The notes below the pieces were generated by a model. That model ran no database searches. It saw only the letters and a list, made by a program, of their open reading frames with translations, and was not told where the DNA came from. From positions 11,945 through 46,372 of the forward strand of contig PMTY01000185.1 in NCBI GenBank assembly GCA_003167155.1: a stretch of DNA of 34,428 nucleotides. Direction: 5' to 3'. Every line of letters starts with the position of its first letter. Within the stretch, counting starts at the first letter, position 1. Source of the DNA: Candidatus Cybelea tumulisoli (GTDB lineage Bacteria > Vulcanimicrobiota > Vulcanimicrobiia > Vulcanimicrobiales > Vulcanimicrobiaceae). The position numbers and the translations under genes are program-made. This document shows positions 5,190-23,150 of this stretch, one piece after another.

Positions 5190-5896
5190 GAGCGAAATAA
5201 CCTCGTGTATTGCGTTTCGTGCGCCATTGAGGCGAGATCCAGAGTGAATGCGGCGGACCCGAGGTCATCAACGGAAGTCGTTTCGGCCTCCGTGCTTGCC
5301 GACAAGACCGCCTTTTCAAGTGCAGCGATGGCGAACTGACCGTCAGTTTGGCCCAAGGGAATCAGCCGAACTCCCGCGATCACCAAGTTGGCGATGTAAC
5401 TTTGCAGAAATGCCGGCAAGACGAGGCTAACGGGAAGATGCTGCGTTGCCCCGCGTACACCAAGAACAACAGCCAACACGGGTTGAATATCGCGTTCGCA
5501 GAGCACTTGCGAAAGCCAGCCCAAGGTCTCGTCTGGCCAGACCGCCTGTAAGGTCCCCAGACACGCTGCGGCTTGCTGCCACGACTCGCGCGCGAACTCA
5601 GAAGTCGCGCGAAAGGCTGCTGCCAGCTCTGCAATCTCGAGGAGCTTCGCGCGATCGTTCCTTATCGTGCAGCACCAAGCCTCATAGAAAAAGAACGCTT
5701 CATTGCGAGCAGAGCCGTAGCTAAGATCTGCTTCGAGCCAATCGACAAGACTTTGGCGATCGCTTACGTGGCCCGCTTCGACAGCCCATTCCAGGCCATG
5801 GGAGTAACTGAAAGAACCGATCGGAAACGCCGGCGACAGCCAGGCCTGCAACCTTATTTGAGAGAGCGGCGCTAAGCACCGCTCATGACTCATCAT
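5186..5896 (-). CDS. ureF: Urease accessory protein UreF
   Basis: All-helical chaperone that, with UreD and UreG, forms the pre-activation complex on urease and acts on the UreG GTPase. The diagnostic [17 protein letters not shown] lies near the N-terminus, and the family C-terminal tail is present ([11 protein letters not shown]). I start it at the paired ATGs 5896/5893, preceded by GAGG, giving about 236 residues. The open frame continues to 5983, but that part overlaps ureE and has no UreF character. The chosen start overlaps the ureE stop by about a dozen bases, consistent with coupled translation. Confidence 0.93.
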
Positions 5897-6353
5897 GCTC
5901 ATCCTCGCGGCGGACGTTTTGGCCGTCATAAGCGCCACCCTCAGGCTGGAACGCTCTTTGCACCTTGGCGAGATTAGCGCCAAACCCGCGCAGCATATCC
6001 TCGATCACGTGATCCGGTCGGATATAGAGACACTCCGCTTGAACTTCCGTCGGCAAGTGTCGATTTCCCAGATGCCAAGCAAGGCGTACGAGTTGATTCG
6101 GCATCTCGTGCCTCACTTCTATAATCGGTTCCGAGGCGGCTTGAACCTTTAGCCATCTTCCATCTTCTAGTTGTAAGCCGTCTCCGTCTGCCATCGCAAC
6201 CGCCTTTGGAAGCTCGAGAAGGACGTCTTCGCCATCATCCACACCCAAGAGAATGCGGCGGCGATGGCGCTCGTCGAAATCGAGCGTAACTGTGCCGGCA
6301 GCTTTTTCTTTTGGCCAACAACCTGCCCGTCGATGAATTAAGCTATATAGCAT
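5883..6353 (-). CDS. ureE: Urease nickel metallochaperone UreE
   Basis: A 156-residue UreE with an N-terminal peptide-binding-like domain and a C-terminal metal-binding domain. The latter has LAWHLGNRHLPTEV and IRPDHVIEDMLRGFGA, whose histidines bind Ni2+ in the dimer. The tail ([16 protein letters not shown]) contains one His and several acidic residues rather than the His-rich tail of the Klebsiella protein, so nickel storage capacity is probably low. The ATG lies a few bases after the ureC stop, with only a weak purine stretch (GAAAGA) as ribosome-binding site. Confidence 0.95.
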   Translation of the reverse strand: MLYSLIHRRAGCWPKEKAAGTVTLDFDERHRRRILLGVDDGEDVLLELPKAVAMADGDGLQLEDGRWLKVQAASEPIIEVRHEMPNQLVRLAWHLGNRHLPTEVQAECLYIRPDHVIEDMLRGFGANLAKVQRAFQPEGGAYDGQNVRREDEHDES

Positions 6354-6362
6354 GGAAATCTT

Positions 6363-8066
6363 TCAGTACATAAAATAGCGTTGCGCCATTGGAAGCACTT
6401 TCGCTGGATTGCAGGTAAGAAGCCGGCCATCGGCGCGCACCTCATATGTTTCAGGGTTGACATCGATGTGAGGCATGGCGCTGTTCAACACCATGGACTG
6501 CTTGCCGATTTTGCGCGTGTTCGTCACGGGCAACAGCTTCTTGGCAAGTCCGTATCCCGCGGCGTTTGCTCGTCCGGCCTGGCTGACGAATATGACGGAG
6601 CTTTCCGTTAAGGAGCGGCCGAAGGCGCCAAACATCGGGCGATAGTATTCCGGCTGCGGGCTCGGAATAGAAGCGTTCGGGTCTCCCATAACTGCAGCAG
6701 CGATCGTTCCGCATTTCAGCACCATATCGGGCTTTATCCCGAAAAATTTCGGTTGCCAGATACAGAGATCGGCAAGCTTTCCAACTTCGATAGAACCAAC
6801 GTACGTAGAAATGCCCTGAGCTATCGCGGGATTGATCGTGTATTTCGCAATATATCGGCGCACGCGGAAATTGTCGTTGTCGCCCGTCTCCTCGGAAAGT
6901 TGCCCGAATTGTTTTTTCATTTTGTCGGCGGTCTGCCAAGTACGAAGTATCACTTCGCCCACGCGGCCCATCGCCTGGCTGTCGGACGACATAATTGAAA
7001 GCGCACCCATATCGTGCAGCAGATCCTCCGCCGCTATCGTTTCTCGGCGAATGCGGCTTTCGGCGAAGGCGACATCCTCTGGAACGCGACGATCGAGATG
7101 ATGCGTCACCAAGACCATATCGAACGCTTCATCGGTCGTATCTACGGTGTACGGCCGTGTCGGAGTCGTCGAAGCCGGAAGCACATTTGCCTCACTGCAG
7201 ATTTTTATAATGTCTGGCGAGTGTCCGCCGCCGGCCCCCTCCGTGTGGAAGCTGTGAATCGTTCTTCCCTTGAACGCAGCAATAGTGCTTTCGACGAAGC
7301 CGCTTTCGTTTAAGGAATCGGTGTGAATAGCAACCTGCACGTCCATGTCATCTGCTACTGAGAGGCAACAATCGATGGCGGCGGGTGTCGTACCCCAGTC
7401 TTCATGGAGCTTGAGGCCACACGCTCCGGCCTCAATCTGCTCCACGAGACTCGGCGGCAGGCTCGCATTTCCTTTTCCAAAGAGACCGATGTTCACGGGG
7501 AACGCCTCGGCCGCTTGAAGCATTCTTTGAATGTGCCAAGGCCCCGGCGTGCACGTCGTAGCGGCCGTTCCGACAGCCGGACCGGTCCCACCGCCCATCA
7601 TGGTGGTCAGGCCCGAATACAGTGCCTCCTCGACCTGCTGCGGACAGATGAAGTGAACGTGGGTGTCGATGCCACCTGCGGTGACGATGGTACCTTCCCC
7701 GGCGATTACCTCAGTTCCGGGACCGATGATGATATCCACGTTCGGCTGCACATCTGGATTGCCGGCTTTGCCGATAGCGTCAATGCGTCCATCCTTGATG
7801 CCGAGATCGGCCTTGACGATTCCCGTGGAATCGAGAATCAACGCATTTGTAATGACGGTATCAACTGCGCCTTCACTCCGGGATCGCTGCGACTGGCCCA
7901 TGCCGTCGCGAATGACCTTCCCGCCGCCGAATTTGACCTCCTCACCATAGGTGGTGAGGTCCTTCTCAACTTCGATGATGAGATCGGTGTCCGCTAGGCG
8001 AACTTTATCACCCACCGTTGGGCCAAACATCTGCGCATATGCGGCACGACTCATTTTGGTCGTCAT
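6363..8066 (-). CDS. ureC: Urease alpha subunit, active-site flap Thr variant
   Basis: Catalytic subunit (567 residues) hydrolysing urea to ammonia and carbamate at a dinuclear nickel centre. All metal ligands are visible at an offset of two from Klebsiella numbering: His136 and His138 (THVHF), Lys219 to be carbamylated (GLKLHEDWG), His248, His274 (HSFHTEG) and Asp362 (SSDSQAMGR). The flap general acid His322 is present. The flap residue usually Cys319 is Thr321 here (LVTHHLD instead of the usual MVCHHLD); the codon is ACG at 7106-7104, so this is not a translation error. Its ATG overlaps the ureB stop (ATGA). Subunits are separate, as in most proteobacterial-type operons. Confidence 0.98.
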
Positions 8067-8371
8067 GGCAATGCTCCCATAACCGCTTGACGAAATCCGA
8101 ACACCATGCGTGCCCCTTCATAGGGAATCAACATAACATCACGCGCCTGCCCCGGCTCGAAGCGTACAGCCGTTCCCGCTGGTATGTCCAAGCGATGTCC
8201 CACGGTAACTTGTCGATCGAACGCGAGAGCCGGGTTGGTTTCAGCGAAATGGTAGTGACTGCCGACCTGGATCGGCCTGTCGCCTGTGTTCGCAACGTTG
8301 AGAGAAATTGCCGGCCTCTCTTGGTTGAGGACAATGTCGCCCGAACCCGGAAAGATTTCGCCCGGTATCAT
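8063..8371 (-). CDS. ureB: Urease beta subunit
   Basis: A 102-residue structural subunit of the (alpha-beta-gamma)3 urease. The family blocks are clear: MIPGEIFP at the start, [43 protein letters not shown] and [10 protein letters not shown]. Start ATG is preceded by AAGGAGG, the strongest ribosome-binding site within the operon. It overlaps ureC by four bases and follows ureA by a short gap. Confidence 0.97.
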
Positions 8372-8386
8372 GTCAATATCGCCTCC

Positions 8387-8689
8387 TTAGCGAATAGGAT
8401 CGTGAACGGCAACGAGCTTCGTGCCATCGGGAAACGTGGCTTCAACTTGCATCTCATCGAGCATTTCCGGAATGCCTTCCATCACTTGATCGCGAGTCAG
8501 CACCGTTCCGCTTTCCGACATCAGCTCGGCGACGGATTTGCCGTCTCGCGCAGCCTCCAAAATAAAATCCGTTATGATCGCGACACTCTCCGGATAGTTT
8601 AGTTTAACGCCCCTTGTAAGACGTGCCCGAGCGACTAGCGCAGCGAGCGAGATCATGAGCTTGTCTTTTTCACGCGGCATAAAATTCAT
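8387..8689 (-). CDS. ureA: Urease gamma subunit
   Basis: A 100-residue gamma subunit. It has the typical start [20 protein letters not shown], then [26 protein letters not shown] and the C-terminal [22 protein letters not shown] region ending in VHDPIR. Length and sequence match free-standing UreA, so gamma and beta are not fused here. The ATG is preceded by AGGGA. It lies 28 bp downstream of ureD in the same operon. Confidence 0.97.
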
Positions 8690-8717
8690 AATGTCCCTGC
8701 TTCTGCTGGTGTGTGGT

Positions 8718-9578
8718 CTAACACGACCACATCTTAGGCACTCTGAAAGGACCGGAGCACGGCTCGAGGCTCACGTTCTCGAGAAAGGCGCGTAAAGCGC
8801 ACCGCAAGTCGAACGCTGACCGCGCTGCAAAGCGTATAATGATGAGGCCGCCAATCAATGTAGCGCCGCAGTGGTATCCCGATGAAGGAAGGATGTCCCG
8901 GAAGTGGCCCAGACTCGATTCGAGATGGGGTCCATAATAGATCAGCGTTGCAACGGCGATGCAGTTACCAAGGAGTGCGTTTCGGCGAATGTTGGGAAAT
9001 CCTGAATCGCTGATTCGAAAGCTGTCCGCCCAGATCAGCCGACCGTCTTTCCTGACCCGCCAGCTGTCTGTGATATGTCCCCAGATGACTTTCTCGCCGT
9101 TCAAGGCACGCCCAAGCACGAGCCACTCGAGGGCAAGCACTTCCCCTCCCGACGAAACCTCGATTTCCATTTTGCGAGTCAGCCGGCCACCATTGAATAA
9201 GATTGTTTCCTGTGGTAGCCACGCAAGTTTTGCCGCATTGGCCACTTTCAGGTTTGTGGTAATACGCGCGGGTTGACTCAGGGCGCGGTAGACCTTTTCA
9301 GCCGCCTGCGTCGTCACGTTGATGGATGCATCTGTTAGTACGGTAACCTGGACTCCGAGCTTATCTCCGCCGGCAATACCGCCCGCGGTATTTATCAGAA
9401 CGGCCTCCTCGACTTCGGCGCCGACCCGCGGGAACATGACACGCAGTGGCGAGCGTTCAAAGACGTCCATGACGCGCGTGCCCCGATCGGAGCCGCTCAG
9501 AAGGATGCGGGCGGAACCTTCCGCCCGCTGCATATCCTCATCCGACGCCACCAACCCGATCGTTTTCGATGGAGTCAA
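8718..9578 (-). CDS. ureD: Urease accessory protein UreD
   Basis: UreD (UreH) scaffold for urease activation. Recognisable blocks are [62 protein letters not shown] and the C-terminal FRVPKMWSC, giving 286 residues if translated from TTG 9578. That TTG overlaps the propeller stop codon as TTGA, suggesting coupled translation. GTG 9551 and ATG 9533 are in-frame alternatives, the ATG having GAGG very close upstream. The C-terminal third is more diverged than the core. It is the first true urease gene of the transcript. Confidence 0.92.
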
Positions 9579-10843
9579 AATCCAACTAACCCTTGGGGGC
9601 TATTGTAGGGGATAGGGGCCCTACTGATTTCGCTAAGCGAACCGTCGGGCTGAATGGCATATCCTACGAGCGTCGAGGCATTGCCGTAGATCTGGTAGAG
9701 ATGGCGGCCGTCCGGTGAAACCCAACTGTCGCTCGGACCGCTGCTTACCGTTCCGTTGAGAGCTCGCCACGCGCCGTCGCCCGGAACCTTGGGGCACGCC
9801 GGATCGGACGCGACGCGGATAACATCGCCGTCTACGACAAAGCTGGTAACGTAACCGTAACCGAAATTCGTAGCGAAGATGAATCTATCGTCAGGCGATA
9901 TCGAAACCCAGCATAACTCGCTCGGTCTTCCCCCGCTCGTGTCAACCGGCACGATCGGGCCTAGCTCGATCTTTCCATCCGAATCGATACGCCCCATGGC
10001 CACGCCGTCGCCGACCGCGTATCCGACGACAAAGTGGTCGGGTCGATGGTGCAAGAACTGTGGGTTCCACGGTGAGCCGCCGCCCCCGTCATAGAACGTG
10101 GGCCCGATGAGCGAGCCGTCTCCGTTCAGGCGAAACACAGCCAGCCCGTCGGGATCCGGCGCGTTGGAAGCGATCGAATGGGGTTCACCATTTTTCCCGT
10201 TGACCCAAAGAATTGGCGAACCGTCTGGATTAGCCATGGCAGGCTGGTCGAACGTGGTACCAACGATGAGAAAACGCTCGTCCGCCGATAGCGCCGCCGT
10301 GGTGGCGATGCGATGGGGCTTGTTTATCGTATTCATCGTGTAGCCCTCCGGACGCGGGTACAGTCGTCCTTCCTTGTCAACCGTCATAAGACGGATATGG
10401 TCGGGACCAAACGAATGCAAGACGTAGAGAGTGCCGCACGAAGGTGAATAAGTCAGCGACTTAGCGCTGCCGCTCCGCCCATTGACTTGGCCAAAGCGCC
10501 CGGTCAATACGTTTCCCGTCCGTTTGACGTCTATCGGCGTCAGTCGGCCATCGTCGCCGACACCAAAGCTCGAGACGGAGTTGTCGCCGCCGTTGGTCGC
10601 AAACAGAAACCGTCCATCCGGCGTAAGAATGACGCTGGCGGCGCCTTCGAACGCATTAGGAGCACTGGGCTCGTCGCTTACCGGCTTGTATGTGCCCGAA
10701 CCCGCGCCACCGGTAGGGATGCGTTCGTGCTCGGAGATCGTACCGTCCGGAGCCCGTAGATAGCGAATTATGCAGTTCCGAATCTCGTTTGTCTGCATGT
10801 AGAGATGTCCGCCGCGGTTCATCTGCATGCTCGAATCGTGCAC
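9575..10843 (-). CDS. Lactonase-like seven-bladed beta-propeller protein heading the urease operon
   Basis: About 422 residues with repeated blade signatures such as VILTPDGRFLFATNGGDNSVSSF, LTYSPSCGTLYVLH, LSADERFLIVG, VSISPDDRFIFATNFGYGYV and VSPDGRHLYQIYGN. The pattern is that of the 6-phosphogluconolactonase / 3-carboxymuconate cyclase-like propellers. No signal peptide, so probably cytoplasmic. The start is GTG 10843 because AAAGGAGG lies seven bases upstream; the open frame runs to 10966, but that would cross the promoter. It directly follows dyad promoter C, and its stop overlaps the ureD start (TTGA). Enzyme activity is not proven by the sequence; a lactonase or a binding role is possible. 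Confidence 0.8.
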   Translation of the reverse strand: MHDSSMQMNRGGHLYMQTNEIRNCIIRYLRAPDGTISEHERIPTGGAGSGTYKPVSDEPSAPNAFEGAASVILTPDGRFLFATNGGDNSVSSFGVGDDGRLTPIDVKRTGNVLTGRFGQVNGRSGSAKSLTYSPSCGTLYVLHSFGPDHIRLMTVDKEGRLYPRPEGYTMNTINKPHRIATTAALSADERFLIVGTTFDQPAMANPDGSPILWVNGKNGEPHSIASNAPDPDGLAVFRLNGDGSLIGPTFYDGGGGSPWNPQFLHHRPDHFVVGYAVGDGVAMGRIDSDGKIELGPIVPVDTSGGRPSELCWVSISPDDRFIFATNFGYGYVTSFVVDGDVIRVASDPACPKVPGDGAWRALNGTVSSGPSDSWVSPDGRHLYQIYGNASTLVGYAIQPDGSLSEISRAPIPYNSPQGLVGF

Positions 10844-10901
10844 TATTGTTCCTCCTTTGAAATACCTTGTAGTACGGGTGATAACAGACCTTATGCGCCT
10901 A

Positions 10902-10947
10902 AATATAGGGCGCACTGCAGTAAATGTATGCCGACAGGCAGTCAACA
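10902..10947 (-). promoter_or_regulatory. Dyad promoter C driving the propeller-urease operon
   Basis: Dyad TGCCGA-CAGGCAG-TCAACA at 10929-10947; on the minus strand, after exactly 21 bp, TATATT at 10907-10902. The left arm and centre are identical to promoter B. It lies in the short gap between the nickel permease stop (10956) and the propeller gene, about 60 nt before the AAAGGAGG ribosome-binding site. It is the only visible promoter for the eight-gene propeller-ureDABCEFG run. Confidence 0.7.
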
Positions 10948-10955
10948 TTTTCGCG

Positions 10956-12035
10956 TCACCACGCATCCGCGGGCCATGCCCTCGACCGGTGAATCAGAGC
11001 CGAAACAATCCAACTCGCGAAGAAGAGTCCAACGACCGCGCAACCGAGCGTCCCCAAGTTTCCGTTTACGGCGTCGACGGCCGACCAGATTCCGCCGTTA
11101 AACCCTAGGCGATTGCCGAGCAGGTTCAACGCCTCGATGCCGCCGACGAGCAGTGCCGCAAAGATGGACACCGGCGTGACGATCGTGTTGTAGAACAGCT
11201 TGCGGTCAGGTCGCACAAAGGCCCACCCATAAGCCCCGAGCATCAGGATGCCGTCGGTCGTGTCGAGCAGCGACATTCCGGCCGCAAACAGCAACGGAAA
11301 CACCATAATCGTTGCGACGGGGAGCGCGTTGCCGGCCTCGATCGCAGCAATCCCCAGCAAAGCGACTTCCGTCGCCGTGTCGAAGCCCAAGCCAAAGACT
11401 ACGCCAAGCGGATACATCTTCCAACTTGCGTCTACCATCGCGAGAACCGGGCGGAAGAGGCGCCCGAGAAACCCGCCTTGCATTATCGGCGGGTCTAGAG
11501 CGTTGTCATCGTGGGCCTGGCCGCGATGCGCGCGCCCGTGGGCCCTCAGAACGTCAAACAGTACGCCGGCGTTGACGGTCGCGATCGCGAGCAGAAATAG
11601 CGCCGAGATTGCGGTACCGGCGACGCCGCCACCGACTCGCAAAAGCGGGACGCAATCCCGCACCGCGTTTGCGGCGACCGCGATCGCGACGGTCAGTAAG
11701 ACAACGACGGTCGAGTGGCCAAGAGAGAAGTATAGCCCAACTGTCACGGGTCTGGATCCGTCGTGCATTAGCTTGCGCGTCACGCTATCGATCGCAACAA
11801 TGTGGTCGGCGTCTACGGCGTGGCGCAAGCCAAACGTGTAGGCCAGGAGTGCCGTTCCGAGCAGCACCGGATGCGAACGAAACGCGGCAAACGCCGCCAA
11901 CCAGGCCCCCGCGTTGAACGCGAACAGGAAGACGTACGTCCAGGCGATTTTCCCAAGCGCGGGCGCGAAGACGCTTAGGATGCCTCCTCCCTCATCGCCG
12001 CGTTGGAGGGTCCTAAGCCCTATCGACGTCGCCAC
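10956..12035 (-). CDS. nixA: NiCoT family nickel/cobalt permease
   Basis: Integral-membrane Ni2+ (Co2+) transporter of 359 residues with about eight hydrophobic segments. The NiCoT signature RHAVDADHI is at residues 71-79, and the other family blocks are YFSLGHSTVV, GLGFDTATE (215-223) and LFAAGMSLLDTTDG. A hydrophilic histidine-containing loop (AHGRAHRGQAHDD, about 165-177) separates the two halves. The start is GTG 12035 with GGAGGA upstream. It precedes the urease operon on the same strand, so its job is almost certainly supplying nickel to urease. A dyad (F) lies about 105-125 bp upstream. Confidence 0.92.
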   Translation of the reverse strand: MATSIGLRTLQRGDEGGGILSVFAPALGKIAWTYVFLFAFNAGAWLAAFAAFRSHPVLLGTALLAYTFGLRHAVDADHIVAIDSVTRKLMHDGSRPVTVGLYFSLGHSTVVVLLTVAIAVAANAVRDCVPLLRVGGGVAGTAISALFLLAIATVNAGVLFDVLRAHGRAHRGQAHDDNALDPPIMQGGFLGRLFRPVLAMVDASWKMYPLGVVFGLGFDTATEVALLGIAAIEAGNALPVATIMVFPLLFAAGMSLLDTTDGILMLGAYGWAFVRPDRKLFYNTIVTPVSIFAALLVGGIEALNLLGNRLGFNGGIWSAVDAVNGNLGTLGCAVVGLFFASWIVSALIHRSRAWPADAW

Positions 12036-12804: not shown

Positions 12805-13671
12805 TCAAGCGCCGGCTGAGAGGGCGTGCGATACGAGCGCAGCGACCGTGCTCAAGTGCTCCCGCTCGACTTCGTCATACTGATGAGGGGTCACGTGGAC
12901 GGCCCCGAGGCTCGCGACGAAGCCGAGCCTCGATCGCACTCTAGCGGTAATAAAATCGTAGTCATTCAGGCCGGCGAAGTCGAGCGCAGAGGCAAACGAC
13001 TCCGCGAATGGATATCGTAGGTCTGATCGCGCGAGGACGTCACCCGGTTGAACGAGGATTGTGGCGTGTTGCATTTCATCGATGTGCACCGAGTCATAGT
13101 TCGCCCTCGCGAACGAATCGAATGTCGCATGTAGCTTTAGCGGTGCCGGCTTCCCGATCGCGATATGGTCGTCCCAGCCACCTGTATCGCGGCGCGCCCG
13201 ACTCGCAAATAGATCGGATGTAAAGTGCCTCGTGCCGTACTCGCGAACGAGAGTCAGCGCTTCCACTTCGGTCGTCGCTGTCCAAAGCTTTTGACCGAGC
13301 GAACGTAACGATCGAAATGCTTCGAGAACCTCGCCTGCGGCGGGCGTGAGTATCGTCGCGCGGAGTTCCGGGACAGCCAGTTCAAATATAACCACGCGTT
13401 CGGAAGCACTCAGCATCAACACGTCGGCAATGCGACCGAGTAGCGTGGGAGAGACGCGCAGTCCTTTTTTGGTCTCTAACATCTGGTACCAGTTCCGACT
13501 GATACCGACGGCCTCCGCGACCTCTTCCTGGGTAACGGCCTTACCGACGCGTGTAGGAAAGCGAAGGCTCTGGCCCAGCGACCGAGTCTCCGAATGAATG
13601 CGGCGGCGCGCCCTTTTGAGCAGGCCTGCCAGGCCCAGGGCTTCTCGCTCGCTGAAAGCGCTACGCTGCAT
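12805..13671 (-). CDS. XRE-type HTH regulator with C-terminal GAF/PAS-like domain; candidate regulator of the dyad sites
   Basis: A 288-residue protein. The HTH lies at about 48-67 (TQEEVAEAVGISRNWYQMLE) and is followed by the usual XRE helices to 100. Residues 110-285 look like a GAF- or PAS-like ligand domain, ending in EREHLSTVAALVSHAL. The layout resembles MmyB-like regulators, which from memory bind small ligands and often sit divergently beside SDR genes, exactly the arrangement here. The HTH region aligns closely with that of the peroxiredoxin fusion at 15635-16657. No ribosome-binding site precedes the ATG, and TTGACG near 13712-13717 with TGAAAT closer in could give a nearly leaderless transcript. 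Dyad D lies 118 bp upstream. Confidence 0.8.
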   Translation of the reverse strand: MQRSAFSEREALGLAGLLKRARRRIHSETRSLGQSLRFPTRVGKAVTQEEVAEAVGISRNWYQMLETKKGLRVSPTLLGRIADVLMLSASERVVIFELAVPELRATILTPAAGEVLEAFRSLRSLGQKLWTATTEVEALTLVREYGTRHFTSDLFASRARRDTGGWDDHIAIGKPAPLKLHATFDSFARANYDSVHIDEMQHATILVQPGDVLARSDLRYPFAESFASALDFAGLNDYDFITARVRSRLGFVASLGAVHVTPHQYDEVEREHLSTVAALVSHALSAGA

Positions 13672-13788
13672 AAGTGCTAAACAAAATCGATTTCACGCGA
13701 TAATTCCGTTACGTCAAGGGCGCGGCAGCTCCCATTCGGGATGAGCCGCCAACGTTCTTCCTCCGTACCACGGCGACGTCGCGGCGTC

Positions 13789-13807
13789 TGCCAACAGGCA
13801 CTCTACA
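13789..13807. promoter_or_regulatory. Dyad D between the HTH-GAF regulator and the SDR gene
   Basis: TGCCAA-CAGGCAC-TCTACA, flanked symmetrically by GTC on the left and GAC on the right, so GTCTG and CAGAC form an outer dyad. Rightward, TATCCT lies 22 bp away in front of the SDR ATG (13845). Leftward, TACGGA lies 21 bp away toward the regulator. Both -10 matches are weak. The site is positioned to control one or both divergent genes, and is the reason to link the neighbouring regulator to the other five copies. Confidence 0.6.
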
Positions 13808-13844
13808 GACTATTTGTGCGAATCCGAGTTATCCTGAAGCCGTC

Positions 13845-14552
13845 ATGGAAGACCCGAACGCGCGAGAGCGGCCAACCTGCGTTATTGTCGGCGCCGGCCC
13901 CCGACTCGGTCTTGCAATTGCCGAGCGTTACGCGCGCGAGGGCTTCTCCGCATACATGCTGCTGCGTAACCCGCAGCGTCTAGAACGTCAAATTGCTTGG
14001 GCGCGTGCGCGTAACCTGTGCGTGATCCCCTTGGTGTGTGATGTCAGCAGCTCAACGTCGGTAAGGCGCACAGTCGACTATATCAAAGATTACACGCCCA
14101 ACTGCGACGTCTTAATCTACAACGCCTTCGCCCCCTCGGCGGGCCCCGTATCGTCGTTAGACCCTGAGTGCTTGCTCTCCGAGTTTCGCGTTAACGTAGC
14201 AGGCGCGCTCTCGTTCGTAAAGCTCTTCTCCGACGACATGAGAACGAGATCGAGCGGGACCATACTTTTTTCCGGGTGTGGTCTCGCACACGCGCCCTCT
14301 GCCGCGTGGTCCTCACTTAGCGTCTCCAAAGCAGCATTACGAGCCCTGGTCGACTGCGTAGCAGAAGAGGCGCAAGCGGATGGCGTTCGAGTCGGTATGG
14401 TGACAATCAACGGAATGATGCCAAGCACTGCCGCCGCGCTGAAGATGATCGCGGATTTATACTGGCAACTCTTCGTGCGGAGCGATCAGGATCACCAGCG
14501 TGAGCTGTGGTTCAATAACGAGGACACCGTTCTCCCGGTGAAGGCTGATTAG
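13845..14552 (+). CDS. Atypical short-chain dehydrogenase/reductase lacking the catalytic tyrosine
   Basis: A 235-residue Rossmann-fold SDR. The nucleotide loop is GAGPRLG at 16-22, Asp66 is in VCDVSSS, and NAFAPSAG (93-100) replaces the usual NNAG. The serine region is LFSGCGLA. Lys162 of the YxxxK motif is kept, but the tyrosine position is Leu158 (SLSVSKAAL). Without that Tyr, classical hydride-transfer catalysis is unlikely; a binding or regulatory role or a different acid is possible. ATG 13845 is the first in frame, with no strong ribosome-binding site. It is divergent from the HTH-GAF regulator, and its stop overlaps that of the convergent propeller by three bases. Confidence 0.75.
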   Translation: MEDPNARERPTCVIVGAGPRLGLAIAERYAREGFSAYMLLRNPQRLERQIAWARARNLCVIPLVCDVSSSTSVRRTVDYIKDYTPNCDVLIYNAFAPSAGPVSSLDPECLLSEFRVNVAGALSFVKLFSDDMRTRSSGTILFSGCGLAHAPSAAWSSLSVSKAALRALVDCVAEEAQADGVRVGMVTINGMMPSTAAALKMIADLYWQLFVRSDQDHQRELWFNNEDTVLPVKAD

Positions 14553-15589
14553 AGAAGGAATGGAGTTCCCACGACTCCGCCTATGCGGATGGTTTCCACA
14601 ACCTGAAGCGAGCTGGTGTCGATGACTTGGAGCCCAGTCTCAACGCTCGCGTAGAGATACTTACCGTTCGGATCCGGGGTGATGTATCCGTTCAACGTTG
14701 GCTTCGACTCAAGCGCAATCGTTCTCACCACCTCCAAAGTGGCTGTGTCTACGACGACGACCTTCGCATCCTCGGACCCAAAGAAGAAGTTGTACTTTCC
14801 GTCGGGCGTGAATTCGTCCCACACCGCGAGGAAGTCCAGCGGGATGCTCTTGATGACCGATCGCGCGCCCAGGTCCACGAAACTGATCGAGAACCCCTTC
14901 CCCGTTGGGACTGCCGGAGGACCGAGGTGATGGTATCCCGCACCGTGATGACCGCTGCACTCGACGGACGCGGCGTGGTTGTCTGGCCGGATCGTGACCA
15001 TGAAGGGTCCGGTCCCTTCGCCGGTAGGAACCGTACCAATCACTTTCCACGTCTGCGGGTCGATTATCGTGAGCGTGTCGGAGTCCATGTTGGGCACGCA
15101 GCAGTACTTTCCATCGGCGCTCACCATCATGTCCCAAGGATGGGCGCCGACGTTTATCGTGGCGACCTCCTCAAAGGTATTCGTGTCGTAGACGTGGAGC
15201 TTGTTCTCTGAGGAGACTGGCACAACCGCAAACTTGCGATCCGGCGTGAGACCCGGGGTGTGGGCAACGTTCTGGCCAAGAGAGATCGTTTTGGCGTTGG
15301 TGAGGGTCTTGGGGTCCACCACGTGGACGCCGGCTAGTGCAGAACCGTCTTCCTCGGCCGAGGCAACGCTCCAGACGCGACCTAAGCGATCGGGATAGTG
15401 ATTGTCGAAAATGAGATCGTGCGTTCCGGGGGGGATCCTAGGAGCAGTGACAATAACCCGCCAGTTCGAAGGGTCGATGATCGCCGTGCCGTTTGCCCCG
15501 ACGACATAGAGGTAGGGATGGTTAACCGATTCCGTCATCTTGGCGGCCTTCGACGATTTCATCTCTGCGCTCATATCACTGCCTTTCAT
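14549..15589 (-). CDS. YVTN-type beta-propeller protein with a Cys/His-rich loop
   Basis: A 346-residue cytoplasmic-looking propeller (no signal peptide) with repeats of the YVTN/nitrite-reductase-like type: GVHVVDPKTLTNAKTISLG, LHVYDTNTFEEVATINVG, LTIIDPQTWKVIGTVPTG, VVVVDTATLEVVRTIAL and LQVIDTSSLQVVETIRIG. Between blades, residues 209-222 form ECSGHHGAGYHHL, a possible metal site (Cys211, His214, His215, His220, His221), and adjacent cysteines lie at 163-164. ATG 15589 has GAGG eight bases upstream; an internal ATG five codons on is an alternative. Function is unknown. It lies downstream of, and on the same strand as, the peroxiredoxin-HTH fusion. Confidence 0.75.
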   Translation of the reverse strand: MKGSDMSAEMKSSKAAKMTESVNHPYLYVVGANGTAIIDPSNWRVIVTAPRIPPGTHDLIFDNHYPDRLGRVWSVASAEEDGSALAGVHVVDPKTLTNAKTISLGQNVAHTPGLTPDRKFAVVPVSSENKLHVYDTNTFEEVATINVGAHPWDMMVSADGKYCCVPNMDSDTLTIIDPQTWKVIGTVPTGEGTGPFMVTIRPDNHAASVECSGHHGAGYHHLGPPAVPTGKGFSISFVDLGARSVIKSIPLDFLAVWDEFTPDGKYNFFFGSEDAKVVVVDTATLEVVRTIALESKPTLNGYITPDPNGKYLYASVETGLQVIDTSSLQVVETIRIGGVVGTPFLL

Positions 15590-15634: not shown

Positions 15635-16657
15635 CTAACTCGCCCTCGTGGATACCTGAGTTAAAATGGATGCTTCGAGGGCGGCTCCCCGACCCAACTT
15701 GACAGCTCGCCTCGCAAACGCGGGCAGGCTAAGCTCAAAAAGCGTCAAGCGCTGGCGTTCGTGCAGCACGAGGGCGTCGCATATGCGCTCGAGCAACTCG
15801 ACAGACGGCCGAATGGGTCGACCGATTTCTAGAAATCCATACCACGATCGACTGATGCCGATAGCTTCGGCAAACTCTTCCTGGCTGACCGCCTTGCCCA
15901 CCCGGTTTGACAGGCGAGTAAAAGGGCCCAACGCTTTCGTTTCGACGGGGATTGCCAGACGACAGCGCCTTAAGACGTCGCCAAAAAACCTCCGCCTTTC
16001 ATCTTCGTTCACGTGGCCGTGGTCGCGCAGTGCGTTCGGCGACGCCGCCTCGACTGACGTCAAGACGGTAACCATTGCGTTACTCGTGCGAGCATTTTCG
16101 TCAGCCGGCGCGTCTAAGATCGTACCGTCCTTTGCAATCACGAAGTGAGCCGGAATCCGTAGGCACCATGAGGTTCGAGTGTCTCCCGGTACTGCGATCA
16201 TAGGGAACGCCTTCTCGTAGGGTTCTGGAAGATGTCCCGGCATTTTATACGCCACGCCGAAGGAACGCTCGACCACGAAATCGGGGTCGACGAGGATTGG
16301 AAATGGGACATGACGCTCACCAGGATATGCTCGCGCTTTTGTTGTCGCCAGCTGTGGAGTCACCGCAACAACTTCGGTCCCCTCCTCGCGGATCTCTCGA
16401 TACGCCTTCGCGAGCGCCGCAAGGTCCTCGTTGCAATACGGGCACCACGCTCCACGAAAGAATGCCACGATCAGCGGCCCGCGCGCAAGGATGTCGGACG
16501 ACCGCACGACGTTACCGTGCTGATCCGTGAGCGCAAAGAACGGCGCCTGCTGACCCGGCTTGAGAGGCTGTACAACACTACCGTCAGCAATACGGGCACT
16601 TTGTTTTAAGGCGTGCCTTTCAAGCACTGCGGCAAGACGATCGGGGAGAGTCAACAT
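15635..16657 (-). CDS. Peroxiredoxin-like (AhpC/TSA) domain fused to a C-terminal XRE HTH domain
   Basis: A 340-residue fusion in one uninterrupted frame. Residues 30-200 are a thioredoxin-fold redoxin of the peroxiredoxin-like family: PGQQAPFFALTD, FFRGAWCPYCNEDLAAL with Cys72 and Cys75, FPILVDPDF and IPAHFVIAKDG, with further cysteines at 165 and 232. Residues 225-315 form an XRE DNA-binding domain (HTH about 258-277, SQEEFAEAIGISRSWYGFLE) closely similar to that of the regulator at 12805-13671. The usual C-terminal GAF-like sensor is absent. AAGGAG lies seven bases before the ATG. The natural reading is a thiol-redox-sensing regulator; which genes it controls is not shown. Confidence 0.85.
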   Translation of the reverse strand: MLTLPDRLAAVLERHALKQSARIADGSVVQPLKPGQQAPFFALTDQHGNVVRSSDILARGPLIVAFFRGAWCPYCNEDLAALAKAYREIREEGTEVVAVTPQLATTKARAYPGERHVPFPILVDPDFVVERSFGVAYKMPGHLPEPYEKAFPMIAVPGDTRTSWCLRIPAHFVIAKDGTILDAPADENARTSNAMVTVLTSVEAASPNALRDHGHVNEDERRRFFGDVLRRCRLAIPVETKALGPFTRLSNRVGKAVSQEEFAEAIGISRSWYGFLEIGRPIRPSVELLERICDALVLHERQRLTLFELSLPAFARRAVKLGRGAALEASILTQVSTRAS

Positions 16658-16926
16658 TAACGACTCCTTGGCAGCCTATATTTTCTTCTCGAACATAACG
16701 AAACGGGTAAGCGATCACTCTGACTAGAATATTTAAGGAGAGCTCACGAAATGTCGACCAAGTGACAGTTGGTAATGCGCTACGGACGAACTCCTCCCAT
16801 TAACGACCTGCGCAGCCGAGACTTGCGTTGCCCTAGGCCCATCACCAGTCTAGCCTTGCCGGCCGGCCCTCGAACAGCGACAGTTCATACAGTTCGTCAA
16901 CAGTTGCAAGGGGTCGGCTAGGGCTC

Positions 16927-19437
16927 ATGGCGCACGCCGCCGAAGGCCAAACGCCCTTGCAGCATGGGTTTGGCAATTTGAACGGACAACCGGACGTGCT
17001 TCGATTCGGAGACCTGCTTCGAGAGTACCGTTTGCGAGCCGACCTTTCGCAAGAAGTCCTCGCCGAAAGGGCGCACCTCAGCGCTGCGGCGGTGAGTTTA
17101 CTGGAACGCGGAGTGCGGCGCGCGCCATATCGGCACAACGTGCTTGCACTCGCCAAGGCCCTCGGATTGAACGAGCGTGAAAGCGCGACGTTGGAGGCCG
17201 CACGTGCAGCAGCGAAGGAAATCGACCTAGCGTTTCACCTCCCGGCGGAAATCACGTCCTTCGTGGATCGAGAGAGAGAGGTGCCCGAGATCAAGGAACT
17301 GCTTCGGTCGCATCGGCTCGTCACGTTGGCCGGAACGGGTGGCAGCGGGAAGACGCGTTGCGCGATTCATGTCGCTTGGGACCTGCTCGACAGCTCGAGC
17401 GATGGCGTATGGCTTGTCGAACTCGCACCGATTTCCGATCCGACACTGGTTGCCGCAATCATTGCTCGCACACTAGCTTTACAAGAGGCGGCGAATCGTC
17501 CGATTCTCAATACCTTACTTGCCTATCTCAAGCGCAAGCGCTTGCTTCTTGTTCTCGATAACTGCGAGCACGTGATTGAGGAAGCGCGCCGTCTGACCGC
17601 TGCAATCCTAAATGATTGTCCTAGCGTTCGCATCTTGGCTACCAGTAGAGAGGGCCTTCATATCGCAGGCGAGCAGGTGTACCGCATGCCGTCTCTTCCC
17701 GTGCCGTCAACCTTAGAGTCTTTCTCTACGGAGGAGTTGTTGAAGTTCGGCGCCGTACGACTCTTCAGCGACCGGGCAGCCTCGGCCGACAATCGCTTTA
17801 CCTTGACCGTTGAGTGCGCGCCACATGTTGCGGACATTTGCCGGCGACTCGATGGAATACCGCTTGCCATTGAACTTGCTGCAGCGCGAGTGAACGTACT
17901 CTCACCTCGTGAGCTCGCGCAGAAATTGGACGAGCGCTTTCGCATACTCACCGCGGGGGATCGCGGCGCGTTGCCGCGCCACCAGACGATGCGTGCGCTG
18001 ATTGACTGGAGCTATGACCTCCTCTCCGACGAGGAGCGCATGCTCTTTCGGAGCCTTTCTATCTTTGCCGCGGGCTTCACCCTGGAAACTGCTGCCGCTG
18101 TGTGCAATGCGAGCGAGGTGGATGAGATCTCGGTGCTCGATCTGCTCTCCTCGCTCGTCGACAAGTCCCTCGTCCAAGCGGACTTGATGGGAAGCGATAC
18201 GCGCTATCGGCTCTTAGAATCGACGCGGCAGTACGCGCGGGAGAAACTCCGGGGCGCTGGGGAGGAAGAGACGACGGCGCGCGCGCATGCACGCGCGTTT
18301 CTGAGGCTGGCAGAGCAGCTCTTCGATGCCTGGGAGATCACACCGGATCGCGCCTGGCATGCGCACGCCGAGCCTGAACTGGAAAATTTTAGAGCGGCGC
18401 TGTGCTGGGCGATTGGCGCGCGCGGTGACGTGCTGCTCGGACAACAGCTCGCGGGACTGCTGCGTCGAGTTTGGAATTCGTTCGGTCCTGCTGAAGGGCG
18501 GCGCTGGACACACGCAGCGCAGCAGCGCGCCTCGGCGGACACGCCGGATACGGTTCTCGCGCTGCTCGATCTCGCCGAAGCCGGGCTTTCTGGGGTGCTC
18601 GGTCAATACACGGCGAGCCTAGCATCGGCGGCGTGCGCGCTGGCGCGCTACCGTGAGCTTGCCGATCCCCGTGGCGTCGCCGGGGCGCTGGGGCAGATGG
18701 GCCGGGCGCAGCTGTTCCTAGGCGAGATTGCGGAGGGTGAGAAGCTGCTGGAGCAAGCCTTGGAGACACATCGGTCGCTAGGCGCGCGGAGATCGGTCAT
18801 GGTTGCGCTGGAGAGTTTGGCGTATGCGCGTCGGGCCGCCGGAGATCTCACCGGAGCGAAACCGCTTTATAGTGAGGCATCAACAGCCGCGCGTGCCGTC
18901 GGCGCAGAGCGATACGCCGCAACGACACTTCTAAGTCTGGCTGAGGCGGAGTTTCAAGGGGGAGATGCGGCCGCGGCGCTGCCGCTCGCCACCGAAGGCC
19001 TTACGGCTCTCCGTGCGCTCCGCCTGACTCATCTTGTTGCGATTGCCGAGACCAACATCACAGCGTATCTGGTGGCGCTCCGCCGGTACGATGAGGCGCG
19101 CACGGCGGCAGGAGAAGCGCTCTCGGCCGCGCGCGACGCGCAATATTCTGCAGGTGTTGCATGGGCGCTACAGCATTTCGCGGCAATTGCCGCGTTGCGT
19201 CCGCACGACGATGCGCCGGTCGCTGAAGACCGTCGCCGTGCTGCGCGCATCCTTGGGTACGTTGACGCACAGCTTGCGGGGCTTGTAGCCTTTCGCGAAT
19301 ACACCGAGCAGCAAGAGTACGATGTGATTGTTACCGCACTCCGCGATGCACTCGATAAAGATGAGCTATCGAAGCTCCTGTCCGAGGGCAGCGCCTGGAA
19401 AGAAGACCAAGCCGTTGCCGAAGCGATGTCGATTTGA
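16927..19437 (+). CDS. XRE-family HTH / NB-ARC-type ATPase regulator with TPR-like C-terminus
   Basis: An 836-residue STAND-type regulator. The XRE HTH lies at about 40-60 (LSQEVLAERAHLSAAAVSLL). The ATPase has Walker A GTGGSGKT at 136-143 and Walker B LLLVLDNCEH at 206-215, then ILATSREGLHIAGE (sensor 1) and GIPLAIELAAARV (the GxP motif of the winged-helix region). The second half is alanine-rich helical repeats (TPR-like), including ARAHARAFLRLAEQLF and LGQMGRAQLFLGEIAEGEKLLEQAL. It is a full-length paralogue of the partial gene at 1-667. The start ATG has only a weak GGG upstream. It is divergent from the peroxiredoxin-HTH gene across about 270 bp. Ligand and targets are unknown. Confidence 0.88.
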   Translation: MAHAAEGQTPLQHGFGNLNGQPDVLRFGDLLREYRLRADLSQEVLAERAHLSAAAVSLLERGVRRAPYRHNVLALAKALGLNERESATLEAARAAAKEIDLAFHLPAEITSFVDREREVPEIKELLRSHRLVTLAGTGGSGKTRCAIHVAWDLLDSSSDGVWLVELAPISDPTLVAAIIARTLALQEAANRPILNTLLAYLKRKRLLLVLDNCEHVIEEARRLTAAILNDCPSVRILATSREGLHIAGEQVYRMPSLPVPSTLESFSTEELLKFGAVRLFSDRAASADNRFTLTVECAPHVADICRRLDGIPLAIELAAARVNVLSPRELAQKLDERFRILTAGDRGALPRHQTMRALIDWSYDLLSDEERMLFRSLSIFAAGFTLETAAAVCNASEVDEISVLDLLSSLVDKSLVQADLMGSDTRYRLLESTRQYAREKLRGAGEEETTARAHARAFLRLAEQLFDAWEITPDRAWHAHAEPELENFRAALCWAIGARGDVLLGQQLAGLLRRVWNSFGPAEGRRWTHAAQQRASADTPDTVLALLDLAEAGLSGVLGQYTASLASAACALARYRELADPRGVAGALGQMGRAQLFLGEIAEGEKLLEQALETHRSLGARRSVMVALESLAYARRAAGDLTGAKPLYSEASTAARAVGAERYAATTLLSLAEAEFQGGDAAAALPLATEGLTALRALRLTHLVAIAETNITAYLVALRRYDEARTAAGEALSAARDAQYSAGVAWALQHFAAIAALRPHDDAPVAEDRRRAARILGYVDAQLAGLVAFREYTEQQEYDVIVTALRDALDKDELSKLLSEGSAWKEDQAVAEAMSI

Positions 19438-19556: not shown

Positions 19557-20504
19557 TTAGGCTTGCTTTTTCTCGTAGATCGAAAGCTGTGCGTATGCGG
19601 CCGACAGCAGCGGCACTTTCACGCCCGCAGCCTCGCCGCGGGCGCACATGTCTCCGATGATTGCATCCGCCTCGAGCGGCCGGCCATTCTGCAAATCCCG
19701 GTACATGGACGATGCTAGGTTGGAGTTTGCGTCGGTCAAGACGCTGAGCGCACGATCTGTGGCCTGAGGTCGTGGTGCGTAACCGGCGGCCAACGCTACG
19801 GCGATGCATTCGTCGAGCATCGCGATCGTGAGGTCACGTCCGCGCGGCGCGTGCTGCACCTCGCCGACAGTGCCTCGCAACAGACATGTGATGCCGCCCA
19901 GCGCGGCGATGAAAACCCACTTTTCCCACATTTCTAGCTCGACGCTCGACGAGAGCCGAGCGATAAATCCGGCGCCTTGCATCGTTCGATCGATCGCCCG
20001 GATGCGCTCCGATAGCGTACCATCCAGTTCTCCGTAGCTCAGCTCTTGCATCTCGCTGAGCTGCACGATGCGATCGTCGGCGTCCAGTGTCGTCGCGACG
20101 ATGCAAACGCCGCCCAAGACATGCGTTCCGCCGAACGCGGCGCGTAGCCGGTCGAGATGCCGCATACCGTTGAGCACGGGCAAGATCGCGCTGCTTTCCC
20201 CAATCGCGGGCGCGACGTCGGCAATTGCCGCGTCGAGTGCATACTGTTTCACGGCAAGCAGCACGAGATCAAACGGCTCCTTCAGCTCGGCCCTCGTCGT
20301 GATTTTGGGGTCGATCTTCGCGTCGCCGTGCGGGCTGAGGATCTCGAGTCCGCGCTGGCGCAACTGCTGCGCACGGAGGTCGCGCACGAGGAACGTCACG
20401 TCACGGCCGGCTTGGGCGAGCCGTCCCCCAAAATAACCTCCCACGGCGCCGGCTCCGACGATTAAAACGCGCGGCTGACTCATGCCGCCCAGAACCGCGG
20501 TCAC
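19557..20504 (-). CDS. Ketopantoate reductase family (ApbA/PanE-like) oxidoreductase
   Basis: A 315-residue two-domain reductase. The Rossmann motif VGAGAVGGYFGGRLA is near the N-terminus, then VLLAVKQYAL and LNGMRHLDRL. The helical C-terminal domain starts at ELEMWEKWVFIAALGGITCLLRG and includes SSMYRDLQNGRPLEADAIIGD. The lysine in MWEKW is kept, but the Asn found four residues later in E. coli PanE is not evident, so the true substrate may be another 2-oxo acid. Start GTG 20504 follows GCGAGG; ATG 20483 is an alternative. No pantothenate genes are nearby. Confidence 0.85.
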   Translation of the reverse strand: MTAVLGGMSQPRVLIVGAGAVGGYFGGRLAQAGRDVTFLVRDLRAQQLRQRGLEILSPHGDAKIDPKITTRAELKEPFDLVLLAVKQYALDAAIADVAPAIGESSAILPVLNGMRHLDRLRAAFGGTHVLGGVCIVATTLDADDRIVQLSEMQELSYGELDGTLSERIRAIDRTMQGAGFIARLSSSVELEMWEKWVFIAALGGITCLLRGTVGEVQHAPRGRDLTIAMLDECIAVALAAGYAPRPQATDRALSVLTDANSNLASSMYRDLQNGRPLEADAIIGDMCARGEAAGVKVPLLSAAYAQLSIYEKKQA

Positions 20505-20721: not shown

Positions 20722-22105
20722 ATGCTCGTCTACGTGAAACGCGTCGAGCGCAATCGGCTCTACCCAACAACGCGCCAAGGCTGCCGCACTGACGGTCATG
20801 CTCGACGTGACGCGCGAGCTGTATAACGCGCTGCTGCAGCAACGCCGTGACGCGTATCGTCTGCGCAAGGTCAGGGTAACGGCGAAGATGCAGTACGAAG
20901 AACTGACGAAGCTCCGCGCGGAGGATCCCCGAGTGCGAGCGGTTTTCCGCGAATGCGAAGACGCGGTGCTGCATCGGCTGGACCTGACGCTGGCGGCAGT
21001 CTCTCGCCGCTCCAAGCGCGGCGAGAAAGCGGGGTATCCCCGCTTTAAGAGGCGGCGGCGCTGGAAGCAGGTGGAGTTCCCGCACGGCGATCGCGCCCTA
21101 CGGTTCGACCAAGCACAGCAGCGCGTGACGATCCCCGGCGTCGGCGCCGTCAAGCTGCGCAAAGGTCGTCAGGTCCCGGCGAGCTATAAGCGCGCCTGGG
21201 TGGTGCGCAAGAACGACCGCTGGTACGCGTGCTTCGAGTGCGAACGCCCGGTACGGCCGCTGCCGGCAACCAACGAAGTGATCGGCGTCGATCGCGGTGT
21301 GCACGTGCTGGCGGCGCTCTCCGATGGCCGGCTGCTCGCCAATGCGGCAGTGGGAGAGAAGCGCAAAGCTGCGACCGCGCGGATGCAGCGTGAACTCGAC
21401 GCCGCCACGGTGCGCGATGGCAACAGGCGGGTCGTCAACGGCCGGGAGTATCGCCGCGTGAAAGCACGTAAACGCCTAGCCCGGGCCAAGGAACGAGAAG
21501 CCAATGCGCGGCGCGACTATGCCCATAAGGTCGCCCGGCAGCTGGTCAACGGTGCCGACGTGATTGCGCTCGAGAAATTGTCCCTGCGCGCCATGACCCG
21601 CAGCGCTAAAGGGAGCGTGGAACGCCCTGGGCGCAACGTGCGTGCCAAGGCGGGTTTGAACCGGGTGGTACTTGATAGCGGATTTGGCTTGCTTCGGCAG
21701 ATGATCGTGGCGAAAGCGGAGGAAGCTGCGCGCACGGTGGTCGAGGTAGCGGCAAGATTCTCGTCGCAGGAGTGCTCGCGCTGCGGGCATGTTGCGCGCG
21801 AGAGCCGTCGAAGAAGGCGTTTTTGTTGCGCTCGATGTGGTTATCGCAACCATGCCGACGTCAATGCAGCGCTGGTGATTCGGGGGCGAGCGCAGTTGGC
21901 GCTCAAGAGTGAGCTATACCCGGCCGAGGAAGCCGGTCGCCGCGGCCCGGATGCTGCTGCGTGGGCACACACAACGAATTCAACCGAAACGCGCCTGGGG
22001 TCGCGTGGAAGTCGAAGCCGAGTTGGTATATCGTTGCGACGAAGGACCGTACGGTCCAACCGGACTTGGAGCGCTTCGTTGCCAAACGGATGGGTGCGAC
22101 CGTAA
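20722..22105 (+). pseudogene. tnpB: tnpB of an IS200/IS605-type element, frameshifted near the N-terminus
   Basis: RNA-guided TnpB nuclease gene. From ATG 20798 the frame gives 435 residues with a complete RuvC triad: Asp165 (GVDRGV), Glu259 (IALEKLSL) and Asp354 (NHADVNAA). The zinc ribbon has C326-x2-C329 and C344-x2-C347. The family N-terminus lies just upstream in another frame: ATG 20722 or GTG 20734 gives VKRVERNRLYPTTRQ. Removing one G at 20779-20780 would join this to AALTVMLDVTREL, so there is a +1 frameshift or a sequencing error. The C-terminal 60 residues run beyond the family end into host sequence. No tnpA is present, so the element is tnpB-only and not self-mobile. Confidence 0.85.
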
Positions 22106-22182
22106 CGGAAGTCGAGTCCAGTCACGTAGTGATCCTTACCAAGCCAAGCGTCGTAACTGAAGTAATCCTCAACGCCGCCTAA
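21966..22182 (+). pseudogene. C-terminal remnant of an alpha/beta hydrolase next to the tnpB element
   Basis: About 70 codons translating to a hydrolase C-terminus: AWKSKPSWYIVATKDRTVQ, then RFVAKRMGATVTEVESSHVV, with the acid (KDRTV) and the catalytic histidine (SSHVV) region of the EstC-like alpha/beta hydrolases. No N-terminal half or nucleophile GxSxG is found upstream of tnpB, so the gene is broken and most is deleted. It lies in a different frame from tnpB, directly at the element's right side, which suggests the element inserted into or beside the hydrolase gene. Confidence 0.7.
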
Positions 22183-23150
22183 GGTGGGCTGATCGCGACT
22201 CCCTCGGAATAAAATAAGTTCGTGAGGCTCTTGAACGGCTCACCGCCTTTCGGATACCTCCAGAAATCGATCGACGTGCTGTTAGGATCGGAACCGACGA
22301 TAATCGGCGTCTTGATAGCGAGGGCGGAAACGTTGCCGCCGTCGAGCGGCGTGTAGCCGGCTTCTTTGGCTTTGTTGCCGACTATCGTCATCCGGTAGAT
22401 GCCGAACTTCTCTTCGCTCGTTGAATTGAACACCGCAAGGTATTCCCCATCCCACCCGAGGGGGCCGTCGGCACTGATTTCGCGTGGAAGTGCAATCTGA
22501 CGAACGGTATGGGCGCCTTTCTCCAGTTCGTCGAAGACGACTTCGCTCGCCGTGTCAAATCCGTTCAGGAAGAGATTGCCTTTGTCGTCGTAAGTGCAGT
22601 AGAGAGGCTCGAAGACCGGATACGGAAGGAGTATCGGTTTTCCCTTAGCGCGGCGGTAGATCGCGATCTTCGAGTTGTTGCCGTTCGATTGGGCGTAGAT
22701 CGGCACCGCGAGGTTGCCGGTTGTCGAATCGATTGCGCACTCCTGGAAGGTGAACTTGGTCCCGTAGTCAAGCACCCGAATCGGCTTGGATCCACCGTGG
22801 GTGTAACCGGTGATGTCGCCCGTGCCGGGGTCCGTCACCCAAACGTCTCCGTTGTCGTTACCACATAAGCCCTGGGCCTGAGCGAAGCCGCCCAGCTGAC
22901 CGACCTGTTTCGCCTGCGGGTAAGAATAGACGTCTACGTAAGCGTAACTAACGGACGCGTAGAGCAGATAGCTGCTCTTTGCCATCGGCGACATCCACGA
23001 CTTGCTCGCGCCCGGCGTACCGACTGGCGGTTGAATGTCACCCTGGGCGAGGCTGGGCGGAGTCGAAGCCGGTCGAAGAGCGCAACCGGTTAGAGATGCG
23101 ACGGCCAAGGAGAAATAAACGCCGAAAGAGCTGCGAACGAAACCTCTCAT
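22179..23150 (-). CDS. Beta-propeller lipoprotein of unknown function
   Basis: A 323-residue exported protein. The N-terminus is a lipoprotein signal (hydrophobic VYFSLAVAS followed by lipobox LTGC, Cys24). The mature part has propeller-type repeats: YVDVYSYPQAKQVGQL, GLCGNDNGDVWVTDPGTGDITGYTHG, ECAIDSTTGNLAVPIY and YCTYDDKGNLFLNGFDTAS. This style of SMP-30/NHL-like lipoprotein is abundant in Eremiobacterota-type genomes. It probably sits on a membrane facing the periplasm. No catalytic motif was recognised. Its stop overlaps the convergent hydrolase remnant. Confidence 0.75.
   Translation of the reverse strand: MRGFVRSSFGVYFSLAVASLTGCALRPASTPPSLAQGDIQPPVGTPGASKSWMSPMAKSSYLLYASVSYAYVDVYSYPQAKQVGQLGGFAQAQGLCGNDNGDVWVTDPGTGDITGYTHGGSKPIRVLDYGTKFTFQECAIDSTTGNLAVPIYAQSNGNNSKIAIYRRAKGKPILLPYPVFEPLYCTYDDKGNLFLNGFDTASEVVFDELEKGAHTVRQIALPREISADGPLGWDGEYLAVFNSTSEEKFGIYRMTIVGNKAKEAGYTPLDGGNVSALAIKTPIIVGSDPNSTSIDFWRYPKGGEPFKSLTNLFYSEGVAISPP

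Follow-up and report, generated by a model that had tools for sequence, protein, structure and literature searches.

A peroxiredoxin-like domain joined to an XRE-type helix-turn-helix domain in one bacterial reading frame

Introduction

In Candidatus Cybelea tumulisoli, one open reading frame of contig PMTY01000185.1 carries a peroxiredoxin-like domain followed by a helix-turn-helix (HTH) domain of the XRE class, which raises the question of whether the frame is one genuine gene and, if so, whether its thiol domain could control its DNA-binding domain. A sequence-only reading of the window (the whole stretch of 34,428 nucleotides analyzed here) had proposed a redox switch built by swapping the sensor of a nearby regulator, and had held that such a fusion is not known to have been characterized. 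The latter point stands: searches of the open-access literature gave no characterized example and no description of a bacterial peroxiredoxin-HTH fusion, an absence that is weak evidence.

Results

The frame and its join

The gene is continuous and encodes both domains, which are evident in sequence and predicted fold alike:

15635..16657, minus strand: fusion gene, 340 aa (P0001), peroxiredoxin-like + HTH_31/XRE (ORF, Pfam)
16091..16561, minus strand: peroxiredoxin-like domain, residues 33-189, with CPYC Cys72/Cys75 (Pfam, AlphaFold2, Foldseek)
16433..16444, minus strand: CPYC redox motif, codons 72-75 (sequence, alignment with relatives)
16019..16096, minus strand: flexible linker, residues 188-213 (AlphaFold2 pLDDT < 50; GC continuous)
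15698..16015, minus strand: XRE/HTH_31 domain, residues 215-320, recognition helix region SRSWYGFLE (Pfam, AlphaFold2, conserved columns)

It runs from 16657 to 15635 as 340 codons with an ATG start and no internal stops, so that the coordinates, the residue numbering and the single frame for both domains given in the earlier reading are correct, the strand being added here. The start stands in the context AAGGAGTCGTTA-ATG, in which AAGGAG is a good Shine-Dalgarno sequence, and the internal starts close to the join lack ribosome-binding sites. That two genes were joined artificially during assembly is scarcely credible: the assembly is in 201 contigs (3.7 Mb, 92% complete) and the join is absent from all other genomes searched, but it is in frame and at the domain boundary, GC is even before, across and after it (0.578/0.615/0.583), the 301 bp that span it occur once in the genome (genome search), and the closest paralogues of the two halves in the genome, with 45% (HTH) and 33% (peroxiredoxin) identity, are too distant for repeat-driven mis-assembly. 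Checks for a frameshift, an internal start, a composition break and a repeat-driven assembly join found no sign of any. Judged by its sequence, the frame is a real single-ORF fusion, a rare architecture built of known parts.

AlphaFold2 predicts two confident domains, at residues 33-187 (pLDDT mostly 75-98) and 215-320 (mostly ~90), whose relative placement is not fixed by the model (pTM 0.56); the fold of residues 188-213 between them is weakly informed, since the last helix of the standalone peroxiredoxin rows is out of place in the mixed alignments (A3-A5). One row, from a plasmid record, was left out of the fold alignment. The tail that follows the HTH domain is predicted to be helical, with ~20 residues, and there is no C-terminal sensor domain.

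The peroxiredoxin-like half

All Pfam matches of the protein exceed the curated cut-offs: AhpC-TSA (residues 34-180, 1.5e-23, 83.5 bits against a cut-off of 26) and Redoxin (residues 33-189, 3.3e-19) in the first domain, HTH_31 (residues 225-303, 2.8e-9) and HTH_3 (9.7e-7) in the second. The best NCBIfam matches, ResA and thiol peroxidase, are both sub-threshold, and the best Foldseek matches of the first domain are BcpB/PrxQ, AhpE, and ResA. The domain belongs with the Prx-like family (PF00578, cd02970-like, including UxxC relatives), with which it shares sequence, fold and the motif F(F/Y)RGxWCPYC, matching along the whole of residues 1-204. The relatives found here are single-domain proteins of 210-260 aa (for example L030, L031, and L051, 39-40% identity), from which the fusion protein differs by its added C-terminal HTH domain.

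The CPYC motif noted earlier is confirmed at Cys72 and Cys75 in the translation, and all 13 columns that are invariant over 18 aligned peroxiredoxin rows are retained, including RG.WCP.C, which is present in 18/18 rows (the first Cys being read as Sec in 4). The protein also departs from its standalone relatives at three sites that are invariant in 17/17 of them, by the substitutions P167R, R192S, and P195M; the invariance holds among the relatives gathered here, and these residues are not known as a curated defining feature of the family. Further, Cys165 is peculiar to the fusion protein (Cys at that site in 0/17 relatives); it stands four residues ahead of the probable cis-proline 169 of the thioredoxin fold, as read from the motif, and thus on the active-site side.

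Four of the standalone relatives have UPYC or UPFC in place of CPYC, with an in-frame TGA at the first motif Cys (translation and alignment):

L032 1447-2091, minus strand: TGA-bearing Prx-like relative
L033 1393-2046, plus strand: TGA-bearing Prx-like relative
L060 1477-2163, minus strand: TGA-bearing Prx-like relative
L061 96-761, plus strand: TGA-bearing Prx-like relative

Two of the four belong to the phylum of the host. They are probably selenoproteins, and Prx-like PF00578 proteins with a UxxC motif are already known (PMC13188914, PMC9312934). The TGA at this position, being consistent with selenocysteine, points to the first Cys as the likely nucleophile, that is, the attacking residue. 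Within the phylum, a number of further Prx-like matches likewise have one TGA.

The HTH half and its nearest relative

The HTH domain retains 28/34 family-conserved columns and has a Cys of its own, Cys293, found at that site in 0/14 HTH relatives. The loss of P167, R192, and P195 together with the presence of Cys165 and Cys293 is a pattern consistent with an enzyme re-purposed as a sensor. Among the matches of the HTH family profile are SinR-type XRE domains and the MmyB-like MltR (3pxp). The nearest HTH relative in the genome lies in the window, next to a short-chain dehydrogenase gene:

12805..13671, minus strand: P0002, HTH_31 regulator with C-terminal GAF-like domain (Pfam, identity, AlphaFold2/Foldseek)
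13845..14552, plus strand: short-chain dehydrogenase, divergent from P0002 (Pfam)

Residues 225-329 of the fusion protein are 45% identical to the HTH domain of this neighbor (E=7e-21), far above chance; the near-collinearity of the two domains had been illustrated by one match, which is exact as quoted, RVGKAVSQEEFAEAIGIS (fusion protein) against RVGKAVTQEEVAEAVGIS (neighbor). The C-terminal part of the neighbor has no Pfam call in the protein itself and a weak GAF call in 1/8 of its relatives, and its AlphaFold2 model resembles GAF and LuxR-type autoinducer-binding domains (Foldseek E ~3e-4 to 3e-3; single-domain matches with TMt ~0.5-0.68), so that its designation as HTH-GAF is reasonable. 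In the tree, the HTH domain of the fusion groups with HTH-GAF regulators of the same phylum, with support 87/96 and on a very long branch. The divergent pair of regulator and short-chain dehydrogenase (12805-14552) is an arrangement described for MmyB-family regulators, which SDR/MDR genes often adjoin (PMC3406030).

With regulators of this type, which couple HTH_31 to a C-terminal GAF/PAS-like sensor (the MmyB/MltR family, PDB 3pxp, PMC3406030), the fusion protein shares the long insertion between helices 1 and 2 and the core R..G..(S/T)QEE..AE..G(I/V)SR.WY. It differs from them in that its putative sensor is N-terminal and of peroxiredoxin fold, with no GAF/PAS domain and no sensor after the HTH. 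The GAF-like sensor is thus absent and a thiol domain stands on the other side, as had been proposed; an origin by a literal swap of sensors is not borne out, as a search of the C-terminal tail for a vestige of the GAF linker gave nothing (shuffle p = 0.41), and an HTH domain with ~45% identity makes the neighbor a relative and not a demonstrated parent.

Distribution

Searches of 60 relatives and of genome, plasmid, phage, and viral collections returned a match over both domains for the protein itself only; the fusion is rare and has been seen once. The genomes searched with the protein as query comprised 149 of the phylum, 388 across bacteria, 396 of another phylum, and 376 of a phylum that bears WhiB and is presumably actinobacterial, and no second copy was found in 17 genomes of the same genus. 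All other matches contain either the peroxiredoxin half, as a protein of ~210-260 aa, or the HTH half separately, as a protein of ~120 aa or within an HTH-GAF protein (L034, L036, L052, L056). The later searches were strict (1e-18 to 1e-30), at which remote fusions may escape, while fusions of both halves at the identity seen here should not. An exact-peptide-pattern scan of named genome contigs gave distant ResA-like Firmicute proteins only, which says little given the exactness of the patterns.

Two apparent exceptions were rejected: Rhizobium/Sinorhizobium plasmid matches covering 77% of the query, whose alignments overrun the stop codon into downstream sequence, and an actinobacterial match in a 716-aa frame, which is an ordinary single-domain protein of ~226 aa. 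No plasmid record covers 80% of the query, and phages and viral contigs hold no relatives. That relatives always encode two separate proteins, named beforehand as grounds for doubting the fusion, holds for every relative; as a refutation it fails, because the junction bears no sign of an artefact and the separation therefore reflects rarity, not error.

Neighborhood and control region

The surroundings of the fusion gene comprise the following:

14549..15589, minus strand: YVTN/YncE-type beta-propeller protein, 45 bp downstream of the fusion gene, same strand
16658..16926, no strand: divergent intergenic region, 269 bp, between the fusion gene and the STAND regulator
16757..16773, no strand: imperfect 17-bp palindrome ACCAAGTGACAGTTGGT, candidate operator, at chance level
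16927..19437, plus strand: HTH_31-NB-ARC-TPR (STAND) regulator, divergent from the fusion gene (Pfam)

The beta-propeller gene, on the same strand after a gap of 45 bp, is the probable operon partner of the fusion gene, and the divergent region 16658..16926 is likely to be the control region. A promoter-like site within it (16757-16728, minus strand) adjoins the palindrome; both were rejected as significant sites, being at chance level (~1.5 such repeats expected for the palindrome, by an arithmetic estimate). The surroundings hold no classical oxidative-stress gene, which counts against a redox regulator. In other genomes, the gene of a YncE-like propeller has an HTH-GAF gene as its divergent neighbor (G043), and a standalone peroxiredoxin gene adjoins a PanE/ApbA gene 32% related to that at 19557-20504 of the window (G126), a weak hint that genes of these kinds tend to keep similar neighbors.

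The genome contains ~12 HTH_31-bearing open frames of 815-900 aa, a marked expansion of paralogues that are probably of the same HTH-STAND-TPR type as 16927-19437. Elsewhere, the window holds a complete-looking urease cluster (4524-12035: UreG, UreF, UreE, UreC, UreB, UreA, UreD), accompanied by a lactonase-like propeller and a NicO nickel transporter, a gene for a TnpB/Cas12f-like RNA-guided nuclease (20798-22105), and, between this gene and that of a GAF-bearing protein, a 323-aa ORF without Pfam or NCBIfam matches (22179-23150).

Discussion

The presence of a redox-type Cys motif in a redox fold and of a DNA-binding HTH domain in one chain suggests, with about even confidence on our part, that the protein is a one-component, thiol-based transcription regulator of the XRE class with a peroxiredoxin-like sensor. 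The retention of the CPYC motif and the HTH core, the loss of three invariant residues and the two Cys residues peculiar to the protein all fit a regulator. Against it, the fused state is known from one fragmented assembly, which offers no conservation by which to demonstrate selection. Its redox sensing, the transfer of the signal, and its DNA target are what we infer, as follows. The N-terminal domain, of the Prx-like thiol:disulfide oxidoreductase type, would be oxidized by peroxide or disulfide stress; its state would change by formation of a disulfide between Cys72 and Cys75, or by transfer of a disulfide to Cys165 or Cys293; and this would shift how the C-terminal XRE domain dimerizes or is positioned, and thereby alter DNA binding. 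The likely target would be the protein's own promoter region (16658-16926), and thus the fusion gene and the beta-propeller gene, possibly also the divergent STAND regulator. That XRE regulators can be thiol-based is supported by MsrR of Corynebacterium glutamicum, which senses through oxidation of Cys62 and dimerization; it resembles the proposed regulator in operating by cysteine oxidation, and differs from it in that no peroxiredoxin domain is described in its abstract (PMC7532634).

Alternatively, the protein might be a bifunctional 'trigger' enzyme, in which the peroxiredoxin-like domain is an active peroxidase or disulfide reductase, while the HTH domain autoregulates or localizes it and binds DNA independently of redox control. 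The retained CPYC motif and enzyme core would suit this, as would the single-domain relatives, several of which are encoded beside genes for NAD(P) oxidoreductases (ApbA, SDR, ADH); the absence of three residues found in all 17 standalone relatives speaks against it, and we consider it rather unlikely. We also think it unlikely that the fusion is a recent accident with little or no coupled function and on its way to decay: it occurs in a single genome, with none in the 17 of the same genus, and the HTH branch is very long, but the frame has neither stop nor frameshift, and the cores of both halves are intact. XRE domains usually need a dimerizing partner domain, and peroxiredoxin folds commonly oligomerize; that the peroxiredoxin-like domain serves in this way, as a dimerization or protein-binding module and not as a redox sensor, is improbable, as it fully retains a redox motif for which a structural role has no need.

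If the protein is the thiol-based regulator that we favor, a distinctly unlikely, more specific form of it would be a cis-acting relay, in which the peroxiredoxin-like domain takes up oxidation from peroxide and hands it via Cys165 to Cys293 of its own XRE domain. Relays from a thiol peroxidase to a transcription factor operate between Orp1/Tsa1 and Yap1 in yeast. In Prx2-STAT3, too, oxidation reaches a DNA-binding protein by way of a thiol peroxidase (PMC7481202). In both systems the partners are separate and eukaryotic, whereas the fusion protein would hold the two in one chain and, if the relay is true, a whole peroxidase-to-transcription-factor relay inside one bacterial protein. A natural single-chain version from bacteria would offer a simple and testable model for the control of DNA binding by a thiol peroxidase domain, and a protein of this type would be a ready-made part for redox sensors. 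For the HTH_31 class, the fusion means that it can bear a redox domain in place of the usual small-molecule sensor.
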